This document shows positions 3,001 through 58,168 of a DNA stretch of 64,000 nt, piece by piece. The notes below the pieces were generated by a model. The model was given only the letters and a program-made list of their open reading frames with translations. It made no database searches and was not told the origin of the DNA. Numbering within the stretch: position 1 is the stretch's first letter; each line of letters opens with the position of its first letter. Source of the DNA: an uncultured Flavobacteriales bacterium (GTDB lineage: Bacteria; Bacteroidota; Bacteroidia; Flavobacteriales_E; Vicingaceae); assembly GCA_913056345.1 (NCBI GenBank), contig CAJXMH010000013.1, forward strand, positions 1 through 64,000, given 5' to 3'. Made by a program: the position numbers and the translations under genes.

Positions 3001-6000
3001 TTAATTGATTAGGTAGATTTACTTTTGTTATTGTCTGCATATTAACAAAAACACCATCGCCAATTCCAGTTACTGTGTAGGTAATCGTAGAATTTTCTAC
3101 AGTATTTGGAATAGTAATTTCTGTTATTTCAGGATAAGGAAAATTAGCTCCAGTAAGCTTCACAGTATATGGAGAGGTAACCGAAGTAATTTCAAAAACG
3201 AAACCATCTATTTCAAAAATATTTTCTGGTATAATAGAGAAGGTTCCAGGCTCAAAAGTAATATCATATTCATCATTAGCTAAAGTTGAGGTGATTTGAT
3301 AATCACCAAGATCTTCACCTGAAGCCCTTGTTAAACTACCTGTTAATTCATCATTTCCTACCAAAGGTGGAGAAACAGAATAGGTTAATTCTGGTTCTTC
3401 TTGACCATACTTCTTTACAATATTATCTGCTTTAATGGTTATTGCTCTGTTTGCTATAGTATATTTTCCACTTTTAAACGTGATGTCATAATTAGGGTTG
3501 GCCAAAGTAGAGGTTATAAGATACTCACCTACTTCTTTACCTGTTGCTCTGCTTATTTCTCCTGTAAACTCATCTCCACTACTTATAGCTGGCTCTGTAG
3601 TAAACGTTAACTCAACATCTGTATCACCATAAAAAATAGTTTTATCCTCTGCAGTAATTGTAATCGGTTTTTTGGTAATCTCATAATTAGCTCCTACATA
3701 TGTTATAGAGTATCCAGGATGAGCTAATGTTGAAGTTATAGGATAGGTGCCAACAGTTTCTCTTGTTTCTCTTACAAGCTGCCCTACTAAATTATCTGTA
3801 CCCACTAAATTTTCACTTAAGGTATAAGTTAGTGGCTCAGAGTCTTCTCCATACACCACTGTTTTACTATCTGCAGTTATGGTAATTGGTTTTTTCGTAA
3901 TTGTTAAATCTGCAGGGATATAAGTTATGTCGTAGAGTGGATGTGATACATTTGAGCGTATTTCATAACTACCTGGAGCATTGCCAGCTTCTCTAGTCAG
4001 CCCCCCTTGTAAACTAACACCTGTCATAAGTGCCGTGGATAAGGTGTAGGTGAGTACTGGGTCTTGTTCTCCATATACCTTTGTTTTAGCATCTGCTGTT
4101 AGGCTTATGCTTTTTTTTGTGATTACATAGTTGGCTTGATTAAATGTAATGTCATAATTTGGATGGGTTAAGGTAGAACTTATTTTATAGGTTCCAGGGA
4201 GATTTCCTGTTTCTCTAGATAAGCTACCTGTTAGCACATCATCACCTACTAAATTTTCACTTAAACTATAGGTAAGAGGCTTTTCTGCAGCATCATATAT
4301 TTGTGTTATTGGGTTTGCAGTAATGGTAAGAGGTTTCTTCTTTATAGTATATATGCCTTTTTCCCATGACACATCATAGTTTGGGTTGTTCCCTTCAATA
4401 TGTATAAGATATCGATCAGGAGCTATGCTCGAAGACCCTCTATACATAAATACATCTAAAGATGCGTTCTCATTTAGACTGGGAGATACTTCATAAGTAA
4501 GAGCTTGTAACGCTTCCCCATAAATATGTTCTTTATCTACTGCCTTTACTGTTATTGGTTTTTTAGTAATAGTTAATTCGGCTGGGGTAAAGTTGATATT
4601 GAAGTTGTTGCTAGTTAAAGAAGAACTTATAGAATACACCCCAACATTTTCCCCAGCTTCTCGGGTTAATGTTCCATTTATACTAGTTAAGTTTATTCCT
4701 GTTGGTGAGACTGTGTAAGTAAATTCTGGATCTTCATCCCCATAGTGTTTTGATAATGTATCTGCGGTAATCGAAATTTCTTTTTTCTGTATGCTAAACA
4801 TTGCACCTATGTAGGTAATATCATAATTTGGATGTGCTAGAGTAGAGGTAATGGCGTATTCACCTACATCTTCGCCAGCTGCTCTTGTAAGGGCTCCTGA
4901 TAATTGATTGTTGCCATTTAAAAAGAAGGTGGTATTCAATGCACTGGTATTGGTTACTTCACCATCTATTTTAAGAGGTAAAGACGCATCTGTATCTCCA
5001 TAAAATTTTGATGTAGCTAGGGCTTCTATGGTTATTGCCTTTTTTAAGATGGTAGCTGTTATGGTGTCTTTTACTTCTAAATACCGCTCACTTTCTAGAG
5101 AAGTTACCTCTAGCAACACAGTACCTACTTCTGTAGGTGTAAAGGTGTGATTATCTGATGACAAAACAGCTTTTCCAGAGCCTCCTTCAATAACTTTGTA
5201 AGATAAAGAGGTGCTAAAGCTTGAGTTGGTAGGCAAACTTTCTTCTTCTCCATAGGAAGTACTAAAATCTTCCATGGTTAAGTTAGGAGTTGCTTGTGGG
5301 GTATATTCCTCCCATATAGAATCTTCCCAATAGGCATTTACACTAGAAAATGGTACAAGTACTTGTTCTAGTTTAGATGGGAGATAAAAATAGTTGCTTA
5401 ACGAAGGTGGAACTGTTCCATTTAGTAATACACGTTCCAACGGGTTATTGGCAAAAGCCCAGGGTCCAATTGAGGATACAGCAGATGGAATAGTGACCTC
5501 CTGCAGCTTATTCTTGTTAAAAGCCCAATTTCCAATAACTGTTAACGAATTAGGTAGTGCTATAGCCGTAAAATTATTAAATGCAAATGCATGTGCACTA
5601 ATATGTGTTAGCGAATTAGGGAGTGAAATTGTAGTTAAGTTATTGTATTTAAATGCCGAGGATCCAATTTTAGTTATGGAGTCAGGAAGACTAATACTGG
5701 ACAGGTCACTACCAAAGAATGCTGCACTACCTATCCCTGTTACGGTATATGCTAATCCAACATCTTCTACACTACTTGGAATAGATACTTCCCTAGAACT
5801 TCCAGTATAAGCTATAACCTCAACGGTTGGTGTTGGACCTGTTGCAGTAACCACATACACAAGGCCTTCTTTTTCAAACTCTGTTCTGTTAAGAATTGTG
5901 TAAATTGCTGTAGCTCCAGTAGCTAAATAATCTCCTTTTGCAGCAATATTAGCCTTTATATGTACTGTTCCTAAACTTGTTGGGTTTAGTATTTGGTTGC

Positions 6001-9000
6001 GTTCTCCTGTAAGGGTAGCTGTTGCTGTCCCACCAGGTACAATGCTGTAGGTGATTTCTCCATTAGATTCCGAACTAGCATTGAGCTCTATAGTTTCTGA
6101 AAAAGTTTTAGAAACATCATTAAAATTAAGGTTGGGTACACTTTTAGGAAAATAATCTTTCCAGAAATCTTCATTTTTATAGGATTGAAGGCTTTCTTGG
6201 GAGACTTCAACTAAAAGGTCTGTATTTATATCAAAAGGAAGATCGAATAAATTTGGTGGTGTTAAAGGTTCTACGAAAACTCTCGTGATTGGATTTTGAT
6301 GAAAAGCTCCTTTCCAAATTCCTGAAATTTGATTAGGAATACGAACCTCTTCGATGAGGTTATTTTTGAAAACATAAGCATAAAGAACACTTATTGAAGA
6401 AGGTATATCAACCTGTGTAATTTTATTATTAGCAAATGCCCACTTTCTTATTAGCCTTACTGAATTTGGAAATACGACCTCTTCAAGATGATTATTCATA
6501 AAGGCATTTTGTCCTATTTCTTTAATTGTGTTAGGCATATTAACTTTGGTTATGCTCTTGTCATAAAAAGCACTATTGCCTATACTGTAAACTGTGTAGT
6601 TATTACCTAAATCTGTTACCGTCTCAGGGATAGTAATTTCTTTATCTTCTCCTGAATATCCTTCCAAAATAACTTCATCTGAAAGGGTTTGAACACGAGT
6701 GGTTTGATTGTAATCAGTTATAATTTTATAGGTAAACCCATCTTTAGTAAAATTAATTCTTGGAGTAATCGTTAATTTTTGAGTAAGCTCTCTGCTTAAA
6801 TAATCCCCATCCGCTTCTACCATAACTTTAATGACAACGTCACCCAAAGATTCTGGATTTAAAACTTCATTGTTTTCACCCGATAGCGATGCTTCAGCAG
6901 TGGTGCCTTCTGAAACAATGGCATACGTAATTTTACCTTTAGAATCGGTTGTTGCATTTAATGGAATATGTTCTGAAAATGCTATATTCTTACTTGAGAA
7001 AGAAACTCCTGGAATTATTTTTGGTAAATAAGGGGCCCAAGGACTATTCTTATATAGTTCTAAACCTCTTGACGGAACCTGTAATTTGAAATTTGCACTA
7101 CTACTAAAGGTGTTGGAAGCAAATTCAGGAGGGTTTACATGTTCAAGAATCACTTGGCTTAGTGGTGTATTTTGAAACGCATTTTCCCGTATTTTGAACA
7201 CATAATTAGGAATTGATATTTTTTCTATTTGTTTGTTTTTAAACGCGTTGTCATCAATACTCACAACATAATATGAAATACCTAAATCTGTTACTTGTTT
7301 TGGAATAACTAGGTCTGTATCAGTACCGGTATAATCGAAAACGTCAACAACATTATCTAGGGATCCGGACCATTTCTCTGATATTTTGTAGTGTACGCCT
7401 GCTTTTACAAATTCATTTCTACGTGTTAAGGTAATGACACTAGTCTTTTCTGCTTCTACATAATCTCCACTAGCTGCAACCTTTGCTTTAACATGCAAGC
7501 TACCTAAGTTTGTTGGCTGTAATACTTGGTTGTTTGTGCCAGAAAGACTTGCGGTTGTTGTACCCCCTTGCACTATCTCATAGGTAAAAGAACCTCCAGA
7601 ATTGGATGTGGCATTTAAAGGAATCATTTCTGAAAATACAATACTAGTATCTTCAAAATTAATAGTAGGCCTTCCTTTTAGAATATATTGATCCCATTCC
7701 GCATTATTTTTATATGCCGATAAGCTCCCTTCAGGGACTACAACAACTAAATTAGTTAGGTAAGAACTACCAAGTGATGAAGATGTTATCGTAGGTGGGA
7801 CTGTAGCGTGTGTTATGATTTTTTCTACACTATTGGCTGGAAATACCCGAGAATCCATTCTCTTCAAGGATTTTGGCAACGTTACTTTAGTCAATTCATT
7901 ATTTCCTAAAAACACATACTTTTCTATATCAGTTATATTTTCGGGTATTACTACCTCTGTAAATTTATTACTAGAAAAGGTTGCTTCCTCTAAACTTGTA
8001 AGTGCTTCAGGTAATATAATACTTGTTAAACTGTTTGTTGCAAAGGCGTTGTTTCCAATTGTAGTTACTGAATTTGGAAGTGCTATCGTTGTTAATTTAT
8101 TACCTTCAAATGCAAAAGGTCCAATACTCAGTAAAGATTCGGGTAAGATAACTTTGGTCAATTCATTTCTACCAAAAGCATCTTCACCAATAGTAGAAAC
8201 AGGAGCAGAAATAACTACTTCTTTTAAACCTTTCTCAAAAAACGCTTTTTTTTCAACGGCTGTTACAGCAAAATCACCCCCTAAATTGGATATATGTCCA
8301 GGGATAGTTATTTCTTTTTCATTAGCCGTATAGCCTGAAACTGATAATTCGTAAGGTGAATTATCGGTTACTTTATACATAAAATCATTCTGCATAAACT
8401 CCGAACCAACTTGAGGTACTATCTGCAGGGTGATTGTTTTGCTATGAGTGACATAATCTCCTTTCTCTAAAACAGTTGCCTTAACTTTTACTGTACCAAA
8501 AGACGATGCTTCAAGTATTACATTTTCATTTCCATATAAACTGGCTGTTGCTGTCCCACCTTCCTCAATAGAGTAGACTATTTTACCGCCAGAATTAGAC
8601 GTAGCATTTAGAGAAATGGGCTCATTTATTGTAAACTCTTCGTTTTGAAGATTGAAGGTAATGCTTGGTTTTATTTTAGGCTTTAGGTGTTTCCATGTGG
8701 CATGTTCTTTATAAGCGTCTATACTTTGTTGAGGAACTATAAGTGAAAAAGGAGGGTTGTTTTCAAAAGCTGTTGCATGTAGAGCAGGAGGTACAGTTGA
8801 CTCTACTGTAACTTCAGTGAGGTTATTTCCATAAAAAGCCTCATATCCAATTTTCTTTATTGTGTTTGGAATGACAACTGTTCTAATTCCTTTCTCCCTA
8901 AAACTCTTATCCATAATTTCACCAACAGGAACATCAAATATATTAGGTAACAAATAATCAGGTGAGGTTAAAAAATCTGGAATGACTATATCTTTAGGGC

Positions 9001-9172
9001 CTTTGTCCCAATAGTCACGTATGCGATATTTTGTATTTGAACTGTTCGCATTATCTCGGCTATTACTAAAGATTGCGACGGCAAAAGAGAAAAAATCTCT
9101 ATTAGTTTGAGCATTTAACTGACTAACCGACATAAATAAGAAAAGAATAAAGCAAAATTTAGGAAACCTCAT
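1..9172 (-). CDS. Giant LRR/MBG-repeat T9SS surface protein (C-terminus beyond left edge)
   Basis: The frame stays open for 3,057 codons from ATG at 9170-9172 to the left edge. A signal peptide fills about the first 21 residues (hydrophobic core ending SQLNAQ). Five blocks of BspA-type leucine-rich repeats (LRR_5; recurring AF..N.L..V..P..V..IG) lie at about residues 35-1370. Each is joined to an Ig-like linker with a GGTA.ASLSG-type motif. Eight MBG-type modules of about 73 residues (KKPITITA..K.YGEEDPELTY) follow at about 1376-1985, then a sixth LRR block, then eight more MBG modules at about 2365-2960. The last visible residues, EEVIIYP, resemble the start of a type A T9SS sorting domain, so perhaps 70-80 residues are missing. 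LRR_5 and MBG modules are known from bacterial surface adhesins. Export by T9SS and a role in attachment are inferred. An integrase fragment and tRNA lie just upstream, so the gene may be island cargo. Confidence 0.9.
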   Translation of the reverse strand, partial: MRFPKFCFILFLFMSVSQLNAQTNRDFFSFAVAIFSNSRDNANSSNTKYRIRDYWDKGPKDIVIPDFLTSPDYLLPNIFDVPVGEIMDKSFREKGIRTVVIPNTIKKIGYEAFYGNNLTEVTVESTVPPALHATAFENNPPFSLIVPQQSIDAYKEHATWKHLKPKIKPSITFNLQNEEFTINEPISLNATSNSGGKIVYSIEEGGTATASLYGNENVILEASSFGTVKVKATVLEKGDYVTHSKTITLQIVPQVGSEFMQNDFMYKVTDNSPYELSVSGYTANEKEITIPGHISNLGGDFAVTAVEKKAFFEKGLKEVVISAPVSTIGEDAFGRNELTKVILPESLLSIGPFAFEGNKLTTIALPNSVTTIGNNAFATNSLTSIILPEALTSLEEATFSSNKFTEVVIPENITDIEKYVFLGNNELTKVTLPKSLKRMDSRVFPANSVEKIITHATVPPTITSSSLGSSYLTNLVVVVPEGSLSAYKNNAEWDQYILKGRPTINFEDTSIVFSEMIPLNATSNSGGSFTYEIVQGGTTTASLSGTNNQVLQPTNLGSLHVKAKVAASGDYVEAEKTSVITLTRRNEFVKAGVHYKISEKWSGSLDNVVDVFDYTGTDTDLVIPKQVTDLGISYYVVSIDDNAFKNKQIEKISIPNYVFKIRENAFQNTPLSQVILEHVNPPEFASNTFSSSANFKLQVPSRGLELYKNSPWAPYLPKIIPGVSFSSKNIAFSEHIPLNATTDSKGKITYAIVSEGTTAEASLSGENNEVLNPESLGDVVIKVMVEADGDYLSRELTQKLTITPRINFTKDGFTYKIITDYNQTTRVQTLSDEVILEGYSGEDKEITIPETVTDLGNNYTVYSIGNSAFYDKSITKVNMPNTIKEIGQNAFMNNHLEEVVFPNSVRLIRKWAFANNKITQVDIPSSISVLYAYVFKNNLIEEVRIPNQISGIWKGAFHQNPITRVFVEPLTPPNLFDLPFDINTDLLVEVSQESLQSYKNEDFWKDYFPKSVPNLNFNDVSKTFSETIELNASSESNGEITYSIVPGGTATATLTGERNQILNPTSLGTVHIKANIAAKGDYLATGATAIYTILNRTEFEKEGLVYVVTATGPTPTVEVIAYTGSSREVSIPSSVEDVGLAYTVTGIGSAAFFGSDLSSISLPDSITKIGSSAFKYNNLTTISLPNSLTHISAHAFAFNNFTAIALPNSLTVIGNWAFNKNKLQEVTIPSAVSSIGPWAFANNPLERVLLNGTVPPSLSNYFYLPSKLEQVLVPFSSVNAYWEDSIWEEYTPQATPNLTMEDFSTSYGEEESLPTNSSFSTSLSYKVIEGGSGKAVLSSDNHTFTPTEVGTVLLEVTSLESERYLEVKDTITATILKKAITIEALATSKFYGDTDASLPLKIDGEVTNTSALNTTFFLNGNNQLSGALTRAAGEDVGEYAITSTLAHPNYDITYIGAMFSIQKKEISITADTLSKHYGDEDPEFTYTVSPTGINLTSINGTLTREAGENVGVYSISSSLTSNNFNINFTPAELTITKKPITVKAVDKEHIYGEALQALTYEVSPSLNENASLDVFMYRGSSSIAPDRYLIHIEGNNPNYDVSWEKGIYTIKKKPLTITANPITQIYDAAEKPLTYSLSENLVGDDVLTGSLSRETGNLPGTYKISSTLTHPNYDITFNQANYVITKKSISLTADAKTKVYGEQDPVLTYTLSTALMTGVSLQGGLTREAGNAPGSYEIRSNVSHPLYDITYIPADLTITKKPITITADSKTVVYGEDSEPLTYTLSENLVGTDNLVGQLVRETRETVGTYPITSTLAHPGYSITYVGANYEITKKPITITAEDKTIFYGDTDVELTFTTEPAISSGDEFTGEISRATGKEVGEYLITSTLANPNYDITFKSGKYTIANRAITIKADNIVKKYGQEEPELTYSVSPPLVGNDELTGSLTRASGEDLGDYQITSTLANDEYDITFEPGTFSIIPENIFEIDGFVFEITSVTSPYTVKLTGANFPYPEITEITIPNTVENSTITYTVTGIGDGVFVNMQTITKVNLPNQLRFIGESAFQETGINSIVFPASLEEIQSYAFRNSNLEEVILTDNIRKVGAGAFENNNIAAVRFPEQLENIESEAFAGNKLTEIDLPDALNYIQPASFKNNLLSKVSLPNQLVSIGDEAFAGNELTELALPKFMMQIGQMAFAGNKFKHIMVSNELMMLGREAFNQTQDEFEYIIVDTPEPPFIEEDGGLSATFGNKQENIKVLVPAAQLAVYEEHPFWKLYQLEAIPEINFQDTSVTFGETLNLEASILDVSGDFEFFIEKGGTGLASLAGTNNSVLSTNRAGEVLVKVIFTEANGYYQLEKTSTITITKRDIDVIANSSSKLFGEEDPELTYKVNNLLNNDLLDGELYRTSGEQVGSYEIKSSLSSPNYTINFENSDFIITKKNISIKVPQVTKIYGEEDPEITYQLPSGYDWIDLDDIKGTLTREAGEDVGTYIITSSLESKNFEITTVIEDFIILPRPITLTADESSKIYGEEDPVFSYSLSEELLNEDELEGSLTRVFGEEVGSYAIESTLQNPNYDIDFVSKNLTITPRTIFIFADAITKTYGEEDPELTYSLSEPLLNNQVLQGSLSRETGENVGTYRISGSFSNANYDVDFLASEFTITKKQISASVPNTKVYGEADPEFSYTLSSELIGNDRLTGTVSRALGEDVGIYTLTSTLENPNYNITLTSSEFTITPKPLAVTVTNTKMYGEPDPEFSYTLSDELIGNETLTGAISRTPGEDVGTYTLTSTLENKNYSITLTSSEFTITPKLITATVFPSSKVYGDEDPTFSYEWSEFPLATDILTINLSREAGEDAGTYTLTSSSNNENYNITLSSSEFTITPKPIRATLYTDSKVYGEEDPELLYILSNSLIGTDALTGGISREDGEDVGTYAILNNLENENYTIDFTSNTFEITKAPQVITFHQLDVENTVGKTLVLTAHASSGLSVSYTSSNESIATVLEDKLTFTTEGTVLITASQDGNANYKAAEPVSQELRILTLSVLDETFNSEEVIIYP
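750..1187 (-). repeat. Near-identical tandem pair of 219-bp MBG-coding repeats
   Basis: Two adjacent 219-bp units (about 750-968 and 969-1187) inside the giant surface-protein gene are nearly identical over long stretches, whereas the other MBG-coding units agree mainly at the protein level. Each encodes one 73-residue MBG module with a YGE.DPEFSYTLS core. The unit is a multiple of three, so gain or loss of a copy keeps the frame. This looks like a recent duplication, and the locus could vary in length between strains. Confidence 0.75.
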
Positions 9173-50965: not shown

Positions 50966-51907
50966 TTAAAATTTGGGGCAAGATTGTCTGCGGTAATTTT
51001 TCTTTCTTCGGTGCTTTTGAAACCTGTATTGCACTGCTAATTCATGAGAGCCTAAAGGCTCATTAAGCATTTTAGAAGAGTAGAGGTCGTAGGAGTAGGC
51101 GAAACTAAACTGTTTAAGGTTAAGTCCTGTTGAAAGGATTAAACGTTCCTCACTTCCATACCATGCGCCTACTTGCAAGCTACCAATATTCATTAAAGCT
51201 CCTGTCTGTAAGACATTATAGCGGCCTTGTTTTCTGAATAAAATTACCGGAGTTAATGAAGTTTGATTGCCCATGCCTATTTGAGTCCCCAATTGAAAAG
51301 CGTAAGCTCTTCTTAAAACTGCTTCGCCTACCTGATTAATGAGTCCTCCTCTTGGTTGTGTTAGGTGATCAACGTTAAAACCGAAAAAGTGCTTATCTGA
51401 AAATAAGGTAAAACCTAACGATACATCAAAGTGATCTATATTCTCTCCCATTGGCTGCTGACTGTCAAAAGAAACTCCACTTCGCGGGTCGATCATGTCT
51501 TCAAAAACCAATTTATCCCAATCAACCGACTTAATTGAATAGCCGCCCATGATGCCTGAGCGCAAATACCAATTTTGACTTACTGCAATTTCATGTGCAT
51601 AGCTTAGGTTAATGCTATTTTGGGAAAAGTTTCCTGCGCCTGCTCTGTCATTAAGTAGTGAAAAGGCAAAACCATTGGTTGAACGTTTAATATTGGTTTC
51701 GTAAATAAAGGCTTGGGTAATAAATGAATTCTCTAGCTGTGGCCAATGATTTCGGTAAAGTAGGGTAGCTTGTTTTTGTACATCTATTCCAGTTAAGGAA
51801 GGATTTAGAAATGGGCCACTGTTAAAATATTGGGTAAAGTGAGCTGATTGCGTGAATGCAGTTAGGCTTAACAAAAAGAATAACACATATAGGGAACCTT
51901 TTTTCAT
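50966..51907 (-). CDS. PorP/SprF-family type IX secretion membrane protein
   Basis: 313 residues with a signal peptide (to about residue 20, ending FTQS). The FTQYFNSGPFLNPSLTG start of the mature chain and alternating strands (SFAYSYDLYSS...HELAVQYRF) mark the PorP/SprF family, an outer-membrane beta-barrel. SprF in Flavobacterium johnsoniae is needed for delivery of the large adhesin SprB. Here it is encoded directly after a giant PKD adhesin and a mini sorting-domain protein, and its ATG overlaps the latter's stop (ATGA), so this is the same adhesin-SprF arrangement. It probably anchors or secretes the adhesin encoded at 52433-58168. Confidence 0.93.
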   Translation of the reverse strand: MKKGSLYVLFFLLSLTAFTQSAHFTQYFNSGPFLNPSLTGIDVQKQATLLYRNHWPQLENSFITQAFIYETNIKRSTNGFAFSLLNDRAGAGNFSQNSINLSYAHEIAVSQNWYLRSGIMGGYSIKSVDWDKLVFEDMIDPRSGVSFDSQQPMGENIDHFDVSLGFTLFSDKHFFGFNVDHLTQPRGGLINQVGEAVLRRAYAFQLGTQIGMGNQTSLTPVILFRKQGRYNVLQTGALMNIGSLQVGAWYGSEERLILSTGLNLKQFSFAYSYDLYSSKMLNEPLGSHELAVQYRFQKHRRKKNYRRQSCPKF

Positions 51908-52347
51908 AAGAGCACAGTTATGGTTCCTTTTTGCTCTATACTTTTGCCGCTTTGTGCCTCAGTAGCTGTAAACTGATAAACGTAAACTCCCTCTGAAACC
52001 GTTTCACCTTGAAAAGTGCCATCCCATCTATCGTAAATGTGTTTGCTTTCGAATAGTAGTTCACCCCAACGGTTGTAAATTTTTAAATGATACTCTTGAG
52101 CGTTAAGTCCAACTGCACCAAATGTGTCGTTGTGTCCGTCATGGTCAGGGCTGAAAGCTGTCGGGAAATAAAGTGTTGTTCTGCCTGTAAAGGAAACTTC
52201 GTTTGAAGTAGAAGCTAAAAGAGAACCATCTTTCATGTGAGCAATCAAGCGAAATTCATGCTTGCCATCCTCCACCTGTGCTTTTAAAGAGAGGCCAAGA
52301 CACAGAAGAATCACAGTAGTGCTATATGTCAGGAAGTTCTTTATCAT
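51904..52347 (-). CDS. Mini T9SS protein: signal peptide, half fibronectin-III domain, type B sorting domain
   Basis: 147 residues from MIKNFLTYSTTV; a longer start at 52386 adds 13 basic residues before the signal. Signal peptide 1-24 ends LKAQ. The mature chain opens with the second half of a fibronectin-III domain (DGKHEFRLIAHMKDGSLLAS then TSNEVSF) and continues into a complete gliding-motility-type (CHU_C, type B) T9SS sorting domain: FPTAFSPDHDGHNDTF, IYNRWGELLFES, WDGTFQGE, VSEGVYVYQF. The preceding gene encodes a giant adhesin that lacks a sorting domain and ends in the first half of a fibronectin-III domain, so the two seem to be parts of one former protein. A hairpin just upstream of the ATG may limit translation. 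Its stop overlaps the PorP/SprF ATG. Confidence 0.85.
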   Translation of the reverse strand: MIKNFLTYSTTVILLCLGLSLKAQVEDGKHEFRLIAHMKDGSLLASTSNEVSFTGRTTLYFPTAFSPDHDGHNDTFGAVGLNAQEYHLKIYNRWGELLFESKHIYDRWDGTFQGETVSEGVYVYQFTATEAQSGKSIEQKGTITVLL

Positions 52348-52384
52348 GGTCAAGGCTAAGTTAGGATGCCTTAATGCCTTGACC
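52348..52384 (-). promoter_or_regulatory. Perfect 9-bp inverted repeat ending at the start codon of the mini T9SS gene
   Basis: On the transcribed strand GGTCAAGGC and GCCTTGACC are separated by 19 bases, and ATG follows with no gap. In the mRNA this stem would cover the region before the start codon and could reduce initiation. No T-run follows, so it is unlikely to be a terminator. Confidence 0.55.
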
Positions 52385-52432
52385 ACGGCCTTGTTACCTT
52401 ACGCAGGAAGGTCTAAAGTTGCGTTAGGAAGC

Positions 52433-55400
52433 TTAAAAGTCAATTTCGGAAGTCGTGCTAGTTGCAGGCACTGTTTTCACCCTGATCCATCTGCCGTATT
52501 TATCCTTTTTTTGGATCTCATAGTAGTCAACTTCTTTATTGTTTAAATGGTATTTGCTCCATTCTAATCGACCCGATCTGTCGCTGTAAGGAATAGCCTT
52601 TAGTAGGATAGGGGAAGTTGACTGATCAGGTGAACCATCAATAAAACATTGTGATGCTAAGCCAATTTTGTAGGTGTATTTCTCTGAATCAACAAGTACT
52701 TCTTCATCAACATAATTAAGATGTGTATGGGGCACCTGGTCTATCAGTTGAAATTCATTTACAGTAGGCGATTTACGGTAGATCTTATAGCCAATAAATT
52801 GAGGAATATTTCCTTGATAGGCTTCCCAATCTAATGCTATGAATTCATTGTTCTTAATTGTACTTCTTAAAATATTAACGCTTTTGCCTTGGAAGATGCC
52901 TTCTAGATGCTCTTGGATAATATTTGACTGACTGCTAAGATTGATTTGGGTATCCAAAATAGCTTTTACTTGATATTGATACTCATGTGCACAATAGGCG
53001 GTGCTATCTTGATAAAACCGAGTTTGCCAGTCCAGGTCTGCTAGTTCAATTAGTTCTTTTTCCTCAAGATCATAGCGAAATAACTTGTATCTCAGAACAT
53101 TGCTACCTCTATAGGGTGTCCAAAAAACATTTACAGTGTTCTGGTTAATTTTTTGTTTATTGAGTTTAATACTACAATGGGTTTCAACTTGTTCTAGACT
53201 GTATTGTAAATTACATTTATCTGCCGCAATCACCTTGTAGCAGTAGCCATAACGATCTGTTTCAACTGATTGATCGAGGTAAAACGTAGAGTTCTTGTTG
53301 TTGATCTGGGCCAATTCAATATACTCTTCTGAATCACTTCTTTTACGAAAAATCTTAAGCTGATCAAATCCAAGGTCTGTAATGGTATCCCAGTTTACCA
53401 TCAATTGATTATGCCCCATTACATCTACATTTAACACATTTACTCGATATGGAACGGTATCGTGCACCCGAATCAACTTTTGGTGCATCAGGCTGTCTGA
53501 GCAACCATCATTGCTGCTAACCTTTAGACTAATATCATAATAACCTGCATTGAACGTATAGTGAAAGTTAGCTTGTTGACTAAGTGGATTTTCGTTTGTA
53601 TACCATTGATAATTCAAGTTAGCAGGGTTGATTCCTGAAGTATCTAATGCTTGAAGCTGCGTATTTAGAGTTGAGCAAGCCTCTTGAGGTCCAACTGATA
53701 TTTTAATTGCAGGAGAAGGCTTGATGTGCAAAATTGCAGTATCAGAAGCAGGACAATTTCCGTCAAAACGGTAAATAATGCTATCAGTCATTCTCTGATT
53801 GGAGGGTGCACGGTACAAATTGGAATTTTCATCACGAATGCCAGTAGCAAACCATTTACCACCCGAATTGGCTGCACTTAAGCTTATGGGACTTTCATTA
53901 AAGCAAATACTTTCAGGTGCTTGAATTTCTGGGTTCGGGGTATGGTTTATGCGAATGGCTTGTCTAGTGGTATCGCTGCATCCAAGTCTACTAAAAGCTA
54001 TTAAGCTAAGTTGATGGGAGCCACTGTCTGTAATGCTTTGAGGTATTGAATCACTCAAGTATGTACTATCATTTAAGTACCAGCCATAACGCACAGCGCC
54101 GTTTGATGTATTTTGTATTTGCGGATTAAAAGGACTGCAGCTGACTGTTGAAGGTAAATTAAACTCAGCGTTTGGCTTATAATCAATTTTAAGCGTATCA
54201 TTCATTTGGTAGAAACCACTGCAACCGCTAGCATCTGTGGCCATTAACCTAACTACATAACTCCCCGTGTCTTGATAGGTGTGTTGTGGATTACGACTAG
54301 TTGAACTGTTTCCATCTCCAAAATCCCATAGCCAGCTTACAGCATTTTGAGTAGAATCATGAAATTGAACACTTTTTTGATCACATAAGAGGGGATCATC
54401 AACCCCAAATTTCACTAGTGGACCGGGAACTTGAATTTGAGTTTCTTTTCTTAAGGTATCTAAACATCCTTCTGCACTGCTTACAATCAGTTGAGGGGAG
54501 AAGTAACCAGAATTCAAGTAGGTGTGAGTAGGGCTTTCAAGCTGACTTTGACTACCGTCTCCAAAATCCCAATGGTAACTTACAGCATTACTACTCAAGT
54601 TTTGAAAATGAACCATCATGGGGGCGCAGGTAGGCGTAAAGCTTTCACCAAAAGCAGCTTTCACCTCATTCACCCTTATGAGATTAGTTAAACTTAAAGA
54701 GTCTACGCAACCACCCGCACTGTATACTTTTGCTTTAACGGTATAAACTCCTGCTTGTAAATACCGATGATTTGGCTGCATTGCTTTTGAGCTATGCCCA
54801 TCACCAAAGTTCCAAATTACGCTGTCAACTGTGGTGTTAAGTAAATTGAAACGAGCATCAAAAGGAGCGCAACTTACTGTGTCGTTAACCGAGAAGTTTG
54901 CACTTAGCAACTGAGGATTAATTAGCTGACTAAGGGTGTCTTGGCAGCCGTTTAGATTTTGCGCAATCAGTTTTACCCTAAATGAATGGGTGTCTGCACG
55001 ACTAATCACCATTGAATCATTCTGGTAGCTTTGGCCGTCAATTAACCAAATGCTATAGGCTCTAACTGAGGCTGTATCCTTTAAGCTATATTGAATCGGT
55101 AAACAGGCATTAAGCTGATCCACTACAAAACTTCGTTCGAATGGCTTAACGGTTACCCGAGTAGAATCAAATTGAGTATGGCTGCAATTGTCTTTAGTGA
55201 TACTTAGTTTTAATTGATAATCACCTGATTTATTAATGTTGTAATGCAATTGGGCGCCATGAGCAACCAAAGAATCATTCAAATACCAATTATACTGATC
55301 TGCTTGTTGGTGATCTGCAACAGCACTTAGTTCTTCTGCTTCACAAAGTTGATGTACATGCGTTGTAAAGTTTGCCCTAGCTCCCTTGATTTTAATGGAA

Positions 55401-58168
55401 TCTAGTTGAATGGTATCAATGCATCCTAAAGTATCAAGAGCCTCTACAAATGGTGTGTACCAACCCGGATTTTGATAGCGGTGAAAATTGCGATCATCTG
55501 TAGTATCAATTTGCCCATCTCCCCAGTGCCAAACATAACGTGCATCCTGTAGATTGGCCATAAAGCTTAAGCTGTCACCGACGCAACTACTATCTTGGTG
55601 GTAAATATTGTAACGTTTCTCGGGCAAGTTAAACGCGCTGACACTTGTTGAGGAACATCCTGTAGAGTCGAAGCCTTTATATACAACCGTATAAAATGCA
55701 TGGCCATGCGGCAGCATTAAGTTTAAAGTATCATAGGTTAAAGAATCTTGGCCGCCATAAAACCAATAATGTTCGCTATTGGTAAATTCATTAAACAGCT
55801 TAACATTAGTCTCTTCACAGTCAGGTTCCAATAAGCTATTTATAGCAGTCTTGGGACTATTAACTTCGATTAACTGAGGATAATCAAAGGTGTCGGTTCT
55901 ATTTAGATGCCGTTCTATGAGTTTTACATTGTAAATTCCTCTGTTGTAGTAGATGTGCAATGGATTTTCTGCTGTGGAAGCTTGCCCATCTCCAAAGTCC
56001 CATAAATAGCTTAAAGCCGAGTCACTTTCTGCACTAAATTGTACCAATTGCGGTGCACAATTAGACGGACCATTTCCTGTATTATTATGTGGGATATTCG
56101 CTACAACTCCTGAAGAGCTTGCATTTGATGTATCAACTATTACTGCCGATGAAATTTTACACTTGCTAAAGTCAACCAAATGAGGATAGAAAACACTCTC
56201 CACACAACCACCTGCTGTAACTACCGTTAAACTAATGTTATAGCTTCCACTATCATTATAACGATGTCCCGGACTTTGTAAATTAGAAGAGTTTCCATCA
56301 CCAAAGTTCCACAACCAACTAACGGCATTAGGAGTTGAGTCTGCAAAAGCCACTATTTTTTGACTACAATCAAAGTAAACCAGCTTTGGGTTTAACTGAA
56401 TTTCTTCGATTTCGTAGGTTAAGATGTTTTCATAAATCGTGGGGCAACCCATGTGGTTTTCAGTTTGTAGCGTCAATGAATAAGTACCCGAACTGTTGTA
56501 AACGTAAGTAGGGTTTTGTGCATGGCTTGTATCGCCATTACCAAAATGCCAAAGCCAATTATTCTGCCCTAATTTTATGTTGGATAAACTAAGGGGAGAA
56601 GGTGAACAACTTTTTATGGTATCACCATTAAGATCAATGGTGTCTGAACTAACAGATATGCCATTTGCAATATAACTCGTATCGCTACAGCCGTTTTGAG
56701 TCTGAGAAACTAGATAAGGATAATAAGCTCCTGAATTAGAGTAGGTATGCTGTGGATTTTGTAGGTAGGAAGTATCACCATCGTCAAAGATCCATTTCCA
56801 AAAGCTTGATTGACTGCTGCTATCAGAAAACTGAATATTAAGCGGAGTACAACCTTCTTTAGGATCAGCTGCTAGTTCAGCTTCATAGTTCTTGATTAAT
56901 AAATTCCTTTGCACCGTATCACTGCAATGCATTGCATTTTGTAAGATCAATTTCACGGGGTAAATACCGGTATCTTGATACGTATGATTTGGATTTTGAG
57001 CGTTTGAATTTGTTCCATCACCAAAATCCCAAGTATAGTTTTGGCCTTGAAAAAGCGAAGAAAAATTTAGTGTACCACCTGCACAGTGATTTAGCGAATC
57101 ATAAGTAAAACTTGCGTCTGCAGCTTGATGTATTTGAATAGATGGATGAACCTCTATAGTGTCTGTACAATACTGATACTGTTGGCTAACTAATAGTAGC
57201 TTACTGCTTCCACTTTGTGAAATATTAGTATTTAATTGAGCTTGCTGACCTATTTCTGTACTATCTAAAAACCAGCGGTAATTGATTTGATTTGAAATTG
57301 GCGTGGCTGAAGCTCTTAGCTGCATCGGTGCGCAAGCTACACTGTCGAAAAGGCTTGTGGTAATCCTAGATTTTTCCTTGAATTTAAGGGTTTGAAAAGC
57401 GGTATCCTTGCAAGCCATTTGGTTTTGAACAATCAAACGAACTTGATAGCTTCCCGTGTCTTGATACTGTAATGAAGGGTTGCCTATTGATGCAGAGTTA
57501 CCATTGCCAAAATCCCATTGCCAAGATTGAAGGTTTTGCCCTAGACTATACAGCTTAATCGAATCGCTTGCCTCGCATTGAACGGGCTTTGGGCTTGCAA
57601 AGCTGGCATCAGCCTTAGGATGAATCAAAATGCAATTCTGACTGGTATGCATTCGGCTACAACCTAGCGTATCTGTTACCATCAAACTAACTGTGTAACT
57701 TCCGGCTTGTTGGTATACATGAGTTGGATTTGCTTGCGTGGACTGATGCCCATCACCAAAATCCCAAATAAAGAGTTGTCCACCTGTGCTTCGTTCCTGG
57801 AAATGCACTAAATTATTGTTTGCACATGAGTCTATTATCTGGTAAGAAAAAGATACTTGAGGCGTATCCCTAACTGAGATTAAATCTTCTTGAATTAGGG
57901 TGTCACGCTGTCCATTATTATCAAATGCGATAAGTGTAATATCGTACAAGTTTTTATTAAGATAAATTTTAGCAGGATTTACAGCCGTTGAGGTAGAGCC
58001 GTCACCGAATTTCCATAAGTAGTTCGTCGCACCACTTGATTTATTAGTAAATTGAACACTATGCGGGATGCAGCCATGTGTTTGATTTACTTCAAAATCA
58101 GCCTGCACGTTTTGGCAGATGACGTTCAAGGAAAATAGAAGTAGAATTGAGCTAAAAAGACTTTTCAT
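52433..58168 (-). CDS. Giant PKD-repeat adhesin lacking its own sorting domain
   Basis: 1,911 residues. Signal peptide 1-19 ends VICQ. I count twelve PKD-type motifs of the W.FGDG form (for example YLWKFGDG, FIWDFGDG, WLWDFGDG) with matching NPxHxY partners across about residues 20-1560. A disulfide-like pattern (SC/GC pairs) recurs between repeats. About three complete fibronectin-III domains follow from about residue 1570, and a fourth stops after the phrase ATSTTSEIDF. T9SS cargo of this size normally ends in a type A or B sorting domain, and none is present. The next gene (51904-52347) carries the missing half domain plus sorting domain after its own signal peptide. The PorP/SprF gene follows. 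Surface adhesin for gliding or attachment, by analogy to SprB-like proteins. Confidence 0.93.
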   Translation of the reverse strand: MKSLFSSILLLFSLNVICQNVQADFEVNQTHGCIPHSVQFTNKSSGATNYLWKFGDGSTSTAVNPAKIYLNKNLYDITLIAFDNNGQRDTLIQEDLISVRDTPQVSFSYQIIDSCANNNLVHFQERSTGGQLFIWDFGDGHQSTQANPTHVYQQAGSYTVSLMVTDTLGCSRMHTSQNCILIHPKADASFASPKPVQCEASDSIKLYSLGQNLQSWQWDFGNGNSASIGNPSLQYQDTGSYQVRLIVQNQMACKDTAFQTLKFKEKSRITTSLFDSVACAPMQLRASATPISNQINYRWFLDSTEIGQQAQLNTNISQSGSSKLLLVSQQYQYCTDTIEVHPSIQIHQAADASFTYDSLNHCAGGTLNFSSLFQGQNYTWDFGDGTNSNAQNPNHTYQDTGIYPVKLILQNAMHCSDTVQRNLLIKNYEAELAADPKEGCTPLNIQFSDSSSQSSFWKWIFDDGDTSYLQNPQHTYSNSGAYYPYLVSQTQNGCSDTSYIANGISVSSDTIDLNGDTIKSCSPSPLSLSNIKLGQNNWLWHFGNGDTSHAQNPTYVYNSSGTYSLTLQTENHMGCPTIYENILTYEIEEIQLNPKLVYFDCSQKIVAFADSTPNAVSWLWNFGDGNSSNLQSPGHRYNDSGSYNISLTVVTAGGCVESVFYPHLVDFSKCKISSAVIVDTSNASSSGVVANIPHNNTGNGPSNCAPQLVQFSAESDSALSYLWDFGDGQASTAENPLHIYYNRGIYNVKLIERHLNRTDTFDYPQLIEVNSPKTAINSLLEPDCEETNVKLFNEFTNSEHYWFYGGQDSLTYDTLNLMLPHGHAFYTVVYKGFDSTGCSSTSVSAFNLPEKRYNIYHQDSSCVGDSLSFMANLQDARYVWHWGDGQIDTTDDRNFHRYQNPGWYTPFVEALDTLGCIDTIQLDSIKIKGARANFTTHVHQLCEAEELSAVADHQQADQYNWYLNDSLVAHGAQLHYNINKSGDYQLKLSITKDNCSHTQFDSTRVTVKPFERSFVVDQLNACLPIQYSLKDTASVRAYSIWLIDGQSYQNDSMVISRADTHSFRVKLIAQNLNGCQDTLSQLINPQLLSANFSVNDTVSCAPFDARFNLLNTTVDSVIWNFGDGHSSKAMQPNHRYLQAGVYTVKAKVYSAGGCVDSLSLTNLIRVNEVKAAFGESFTPTCAPMMVHFQNLSSNAVSYHWDFGDGSQSQLESPTHTYLNSGYFSPQLIVSSAEGCLDTLRKETQIQVPGPLVKFGVDDPLLCDQKSVQFHDSTQNAVSWLWDFGDGNSSTSRNPQHTYQDTGSYVVRLMATDASGCSGFYQMNDTLKIDYKPNAEFNLPSTVSCSPFNPQIQNTSNGAVRYGWYLNDSTYLSDSIPQSITDSGSHQLSLIAFSRLGCSDTTRQAIRINHTPNPEIQAPESICFNESPISLSAANSGGKWFATGIRDENSNLYRAPSNQRMTDSIIYRFDGNCPASDTAILHIKPSPAIKISVGPQEACSTLNTQLQALDTSGINPANLNYQWYTNENPLSQQANFHYTFNAGYYDISLKVSSNDGCSDSLMHQKLIRVHDTVPYRVNVLNVDVMGHNQLMVNWDTITDLGFDQLKIFRKRSDSEEYIELAQINNKNSTFYLDQSVETDRYGYCYKVIAADKCNLQYSLEQVETHCSIKLNKQKINQNTVNVFWTPYRGSNVLRYKLFRYDLEEKELIELADLDWQTRFYQDSTAYCAHEYQYQVKAILDTQINLSSQSNIIQEHLEGIFQGKSVNILRSTIKNNEFIALDWEAYQGNIPQFIGYKIYRKSPTVNEFQLIDQVPHTHLNYVDEEVLVDSEKYTYKIGLASQCFIDGSPDQSTSPILLKAIPYSDRSGRLEWSKYHLNNKEVDYYEIQKKDKYGRWIRVKTVPATSTTSEIDF

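Follow-up and report, generated by a model that had tools for sequence, protein, structure and literature searches.

How does a giant adhesin that ends without a sorting signal of its own come to be exported by the type IX secretion system (T9SS)? The question is raised by the window analysed here, a 64,000-nucleotide stretch of an uncultured Flavobacteriales bacterium (contig CAJXMH010000013.1), in which an adhesin of 1911 residues (52433–58168, minus strand) comprises a signal peptide, PKD repeats (PKD_4, 492.7 bits in a Pfam/NCBIfam search), three fibronectin type III (Fn3) domains and only part of a fourth. Transcription on the minus strand runs from this gene to that of a mini-protein of 147 residues (51904–52347, minus strand), and from there to a PorP/SprF-family gene. 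The answer that we consider likely is that adhesin and mini-protein form an ancient, conserved split T9SS cargo, a two-subunit type B system in which the mini-protein would supply in trans strands F and G of the fourth Fn3 domain, the sorting signal and the PorP anchor. Alignments and domain searches support the view that a single Fn3 domain is shared out between two exported proteins, and the conservation of the cut in this one domain across dozens of related bacteria suggests that the halves recognise one another and share a single export event.

The two genes and their domains

The adhesin terminates in ...YEIQKKDKYGRWIRVKTVPATSTTSEIDF immediately before its stop codon, after strand E of the fourth Fn3 domain. 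Its final 62 residues (52436–52621, minus strand) correspond to strands A, B, C, C' and E, as judged by aligning them with uncut homologues and the 48 other truncated tails, with strand positions taken from an AlphaFold model of an uncut homologue. Searches of the 1911-residue protein against Pfam and NCBIfam found neither CHU_C nor Por_Secre_tail, in agreement with a preliminary description of this locus according to which the adhesin ends inside the domain and lacks a sorting domain, and 49 of 49 homologues end before a sorting domain of either type A or type B. The same description had read in the next gene a signal peptide of its own, the rest of the Fn3 domain and a type B sorting domain, and this reading is borne out. 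Translated from its ATG (the called open reading frame, ORF, is pushed to a GTG at 52386, giving 160 residues), the mini-protein has the order MIKNFLTYSTTVILLCLGLSLKAQ-VEDGKHEFRLIAHMKDGSLLASTSNEVSF followed by CHU_C, and its composition is drawn from the ORF itself, from its CHU_C and TIGR04131 matches, and from 43 further stand-alone mini-proteins. The predicted Sec signal peptide (52279–52347, minus strand; cleavage at ...LKA/Q) has a hydrophobic core with a mean Kyte–Doolittle hydropathy of 2.3 over 12 residues, and judged by hydropathy the hydrophobic N-terminus, together with the A/Q junction, recurs in most mini-proteins. It is followed by the segment VEDGKHEFRLIAHMKDGSLLASTSNEVSF (52189–52275, minus strand), which a profile from uncut homologues only places as the F and G strands of the fourth Fn3 domain, and then by the type B sorting domain (51913–52167, minus strand; mini-protein residues 61–145), which lies above the curated cut-offs of both PF13585 (66.4 bits, cut-off 27) and TIGR04131 (51.9 bits, cut-off 35).

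Complementarity of the two halves

The fit between the halves can be judged on a reference profile made solely from uncut homologues, whose 208 positions cover the end of the third Fn3 domain, the fourth Fn3 domain and CHU_C. On this profile the adhesin half reaches position 82 and the mini-protein begins at position 88 (medians), and therefore almost nothing has been lost or duplicated; the earlier claim that the two halves amount to one Fn3 domain is supported by this result. In the uncut consensus the site of the cut reads SYIDK/LTDLNQAK/YCYRV. AlphaFold modelling of the uncut homologue L257 gave a structure that Foldseek matches to Fn3 tandems, with strands A (98–102), B (108–112), C (122–130), C' (136–141) and E (147–149), then a loop, then strand F (162–169), and because of these positions the cut is predicted to fall in the E–F loop. 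The seven strands of the Fn3 fold (A, B, C, C', E, F, G) are accordingly assigned, by alignment to uncut homologues and by this model, five to the adhesin and two to the mini-protein, and the latter two retain a conserved sequence (YRVtA / SxSN). Structure models were made of the uncut homologue and of the window's mini-protein, each folded alone. In the model of the mini-protein the sorting domain is confident, with a predicted local distance difference test score (pLDDT) of about 90 and above, and the Fn3 part, at about 62–70, shows short strand pieces and no F–G hairpin; this low confidence is weak evidence, fitting strands that are modelled apart from their partner.

Distribution in related genomes

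A first survey of 60 related genomes showed that in other families, too, adhesin and small CHU_C protein are encoded apart, the one ending and the other starting at the same points, and profile searches covered a class sample of 395 genomes. For the adhesin tail these yielded a high-scoring group (about 186 bits and more), all fetched members of which stop at the end of the profile, and a next group (about 177 bits and less) of uncut genes, 27 of 27 taken from it carrying CHU_C in the same ORF about 125–150 residues further downstream. The truncated adhesins number 49 and come from 42 genomes, of which 39 belong to the class sample, two are close relatives and one is a metagenome-assembled genome (MAG). 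Their stop lies 15–19 residues past the last invariant tryptophan in 46 of the 49 tails and 27 residues past it in three tails from a single family (f14), and the last residues are variable despite this constant position. The mini-protein profile found a stand-alone mini-protein in 40 of the 395 genomes, exactly one in each; 39 of these 40 coincide exactly with the set in which the adhesin is truncated, and 355 genomes lack both parts, a count from which no p-value is drawn because the genomes are related. In the fortieth genome (G120) the adhesin is broken by stops. At this locus, L284 (G120:C3, about 3190–9015, minus strand), the adhesin adjoining the mini-protein has stops before its C-terminus, through either decay or an assembly error. 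Apparent extra stand-alone mini-proteins in two genomes (G203, G304) were rejected as contig-edge pieces of uncut genes, and none was present in five uncut-adhesin genomes checked alongside the split ones.

The split system occurs in 12 families of the class sample, in five of which (f1, f5, f21, f24, f58) some genomes have both parts and others have neither. Most of the genomes concerned have a single adhesin; seven have two truncated adhesins and one mini-protein, and for no fewer than four of these the fetched sequence contains both adhesins in full. Many of the genomes are draft MAGs, and some adhesins run off their contigs. A wider scan of contigs gave, among the matches listed, at least four mini-proteins and at least one truncated adhesin, all in MAGs. 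At one locus, L185 (128–6167), a truncated adhesin and a mini-protein lie side by side in divergent orientation. The MAG concerned is assigned to Saccharospirillaceae (Gammaproteobacteria), a label or bin that is probably wrong because the genes are of Bacteroidota type. Among 16 genomes no convincing third class of client ending in half an Fn3 domain was found, the stops having been checked for only part of the weak matches.

Origin of the cut and order of the genes

In a tree of the tails, the truncated adhesins form a single clade (support 99/98), spanning at least 12 families, as against the uncut homologues with complete Fn3 and CHU_C domains. The simplest interpretation of the tree, which parts truncated from uncut tails on one branch, is that the cut arose once; being unrooted, the tree gives no order of the two states. 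A tree of the mini-proteins and C-terminal domains (121 columns) did not show a single origin. The order of the genes differs between genomes. The mini-protein stands directly upstream of the adhesin in more than fifteen genomes, and downstream, followed by PorP, in the window's genome and in G011 and G036; at L185 the two are divergent, and in four families (f23, f56, f58, f61) they are unlinked. In G041 one further gene stands between mini-protein and adhesin; this gene (L068, 3025–3492) encodes a small secreted protein of 155 residues that resembles a single Fn3-type domain.

The co-occurrence of adhesin and mini-protein persists despite these differences in order. The arrangement in the window, with its hint of fission in place, is thus an exception, since in relatives the mini-protein lies mostly upstream or elsewhere, and the preliminary description's suggestion that this one site underwent fission, or received an inserted segment encoding a signal peptide, is not supported: the cut is common to a whole clade. 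Comparison of the locus in relatives, which had been suggested there, recovers the same cut in 49 adhesins, with the qualification that the two genes are not always neighbours. It had also been envisaged that homologues with the same end might use a different export route; adhesins with the same end were indeed found, and a mini-protein was present every time.

The junction between the genes

The gap between the adhesin stop and the start of the mini-protein (52348–52432, minus strand) measures 85 nucleotides and folds into two hairpins. The genes occupy different frames, with several adhesin-frame stops between them, and a simple frameshift is for these reasons excluded, as had been recognised from the start. 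The gap and the signal-peptide stretch are each present once in the genome, as is the junction of 190 nucleotides, so that a repeated element at the cut is excluded as well; a mobile element was rejected likewise, the junction having no plasmid match and no Rfam match. The gap hairpins fold with a z of about -3.7, and the second, a strong hairpin at 52345–52387 (minus strand; GTGGTCAAGGC ... GCCTTGACCATG), takes the mini-protein's start codon into its pairing and could limit translation of that gene. A conserved RNA element at the gap was rejected, there being no counterpart in G011 (z 0.15) and a different fold in G036. Translational bypassing was also rejected, as the mini-protein has its own signal peptide and is often encoded upstream or elsewhere.

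Alternative explanations

A recent fission, decay or assembly error confined to this genome is already refuted. The assembly of the window is fragmented (66 contigs), and the two halves, when joined, read smoothly, but with 49 truncated adhesins from 42 genomes sharing the same cut within one clade, mini-proteins that carry signal peptides of their own, and gene orders that differ, practically no weight is left for such an accident. A more serious alternative is that the two proteins act apart, the adhesin reaching the surface or remaining periplasmic by some other route, with a stable half-domain as its end, and the mini-protein being an independent small PorP-bound surface protein. Another short CHU_C protein (L001, 198 residues) does adjoin a PorP gene in the same genome, and the mini-protein and adhesin genes are unlinked in several families. 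Against this stand the strict joint presence of the two across 12 families, the meeting of the halves within a few residues, and the absence from the adhesin of any other sorting domain in Pfam and NCBIfam searches; moreover, the conserved F and G strands of the mini-protein would be left with no partner. Taken together, these observations make separate action unlikely.

Covalent joining after export, whether through isopeptide bonding, disulfide formation or trans-splicing, deserves consideration because a loaded giant surface adhesin would benefit from it, and isopeptide bonds occur in other surface Ig-like domains. However, mature mini-proteins have no conserved cysteine, and inspection of the alignments, short of a formal test, revealed no invariant lysine paired with asparagine or aspartate. 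Nor were intein halves found at the cut: the adhesin ends only 15–19 residues past the conserved tryptophan, and the signal peptide of the mini-protein passes straight into strand F, leaving no room for an intein. A covalent link of any of these kinds therefore appears highly improbable.

Proposed route of export

Complementation by the mini-protein is the best explanation of the divided Fn3 domain that the sequences offer. Export by the T9SS requires a C-terminal domain (CTD). Those of type B bind to PorP/SprF carriers (PMC9143113), which take them up and anchor them (PMC9143113, PMC12618676), and they are recognised by dedicated shuttles (PMC12618676). Both proteins have Sec signals, and completion by the mini-protein with export via its CTD is the economical reading. 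Sec would export adhesin and mini-protein separately to the periplasm, where strands F and G of the latter would complete the fourth Fn3 domain of the former (strands A–E) in a non-covalent manner, the non-covalent joint being favoured because of the missing conserved cysteine and the missing room for an intein. Once complete, the pair would rely on the CHU_C domain of the mini-protein as its T9SS signal, pass through SprA, and be held at the surface by a PorP/SprF carrier, here presumably the product of the adjoining gene. The window's genome encodes the SprA translocon (TIGR04189, 2605 bits) and a GldJ-like protein slightly below its cut-off. There is an even chance that each cell has one such small adaptor, a trans-acting T9SS signal and anchor that plugs into the cut Fn3 domain of one or more giant adhesins and takes them through the translocon. 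That seven genomes combine two truncated adhesins with only one mini-protein suggests that it may be shared between adhesins, and a possible benefit of the split is one export and anchoring module for several of them, although this cannot be the whole reason, since most genomes have one adhesin.

Several considerations weigh against the proposed split cargo. The AlphaFold model of L257, on which the strand boundaries depend, was made from a 13-row alignment and is only moderate for the fourth Fn3 domain (pLDDT about 65–80), and the search profiles were built from the family itself. Adhesin and mini-protein distances correlate (r = 0.82 over 41 genomes), a point in favour of the pairing, but common descent inflates this value, much of which would follow from a shared species history, and it inflates the co-occurrence count as well. 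PorP adjoins the mini-protein in no lineage other than that of the window. What the sequences establish is a domain divided between two proteins, a signal peptide on each, a sorting domain on the mini-protein, a conserved cut, co-occurrence and the presence of SprA; from these we infer that the two assemble physically, that they do so in the periplasm, that they are exported jointly and that this particular PorP anchors them.

Neighbouring genes

The gene that follows the mini-protein encodes a PorP/SprF-family outer-membrane shuttle or anchor (50966–51907, minus strand; PF11751 162.9 bits, TIGR03519 208.9 bits) with the C-terminal tail ...SCPKF; its start overlaps the stop of the mini-protein, and it is part of the same unit. 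Tails with a single cysteine occur in all three linked PorP/SprF proteins: those of the window (50966–50980, minus strand; SCPKF), of L067 (7912–8865, SCPKF) and of L072 (2004–2957, LCPVF). The CxC tail of SprF forms a disulfide with GldK (PMC12635249), and by analogy the cysteine of the PorP tail might tether this carrier to the gliding track. Elsewhere in the window's genome, L001 (G000:C21, 1174–2708) contains the other short type B protein, of 198 residues, which has a complete upstream domain and is followed by a PorP-like gene ending in FCPAYQ.

Relation to known systems

The predicted Sec signal, the CHU_C/TIGR04131 domain and the giant adhesin are features shared with known T9SS type B cargo and its PorP/SprF partner, as in SprB–SprF of Flavobacterium johnsoniae and PG1035–PorP of Porphyromonas gingivalis (PMC9143113, PMC12618676), and for the window locus the likeness extends to the adjoining PorP/SprF gene. 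In those systems, however, the sorting domain belongs to the adhesin chain, whereas here a second protein carries it, along with the final two Fn3 strands. Uncut PKD/Fn3/CHU_C adhesins of the same class (G037, G052, G359; L257) have the same tail with a complete fourth Fn3 domain and then CHU_C, all in one polypeptide from a single ORF as opposed to two proteins. In the donor-strand complementation of pili and fimbriae (chaperone-usher; Mfa/FimA type, PMC4789730) an incomplete Ig-like domain is completed by strands of another exported protein, as would be the case here, but the partners considered here are pieces of a single Fn3 domain that is divided in its E–F loop, with two strands given by the protein that bears the export signal, and no chaperone, usher or polymerisation is implied. 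RemZ was rejected as a precedent, being a full-length type A cargo. An engineered Fn3 domain cut in a loop reportedly reassembles from its two pieces (Koide laboratory); unlike the system described here, it is artificial and has no coupling to secretion.

Significance

T9SS cargo so far described carries its own C-terminal signal, and no description of a cargo whose CTD resides on another protein was found in the open-access literature that was searched. The divided domain would put a natural split Fn3 tag pair on offer, and a split cargo would provide a direct test of the foldedness of cargo during its passage through SprA. Adhesins of the split family would escape searches that rely on a sorting domain. 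Should the proposal hold true, the T9SS would be able to export a non-covalent pair, and one signal would be able to serve several adhesins.
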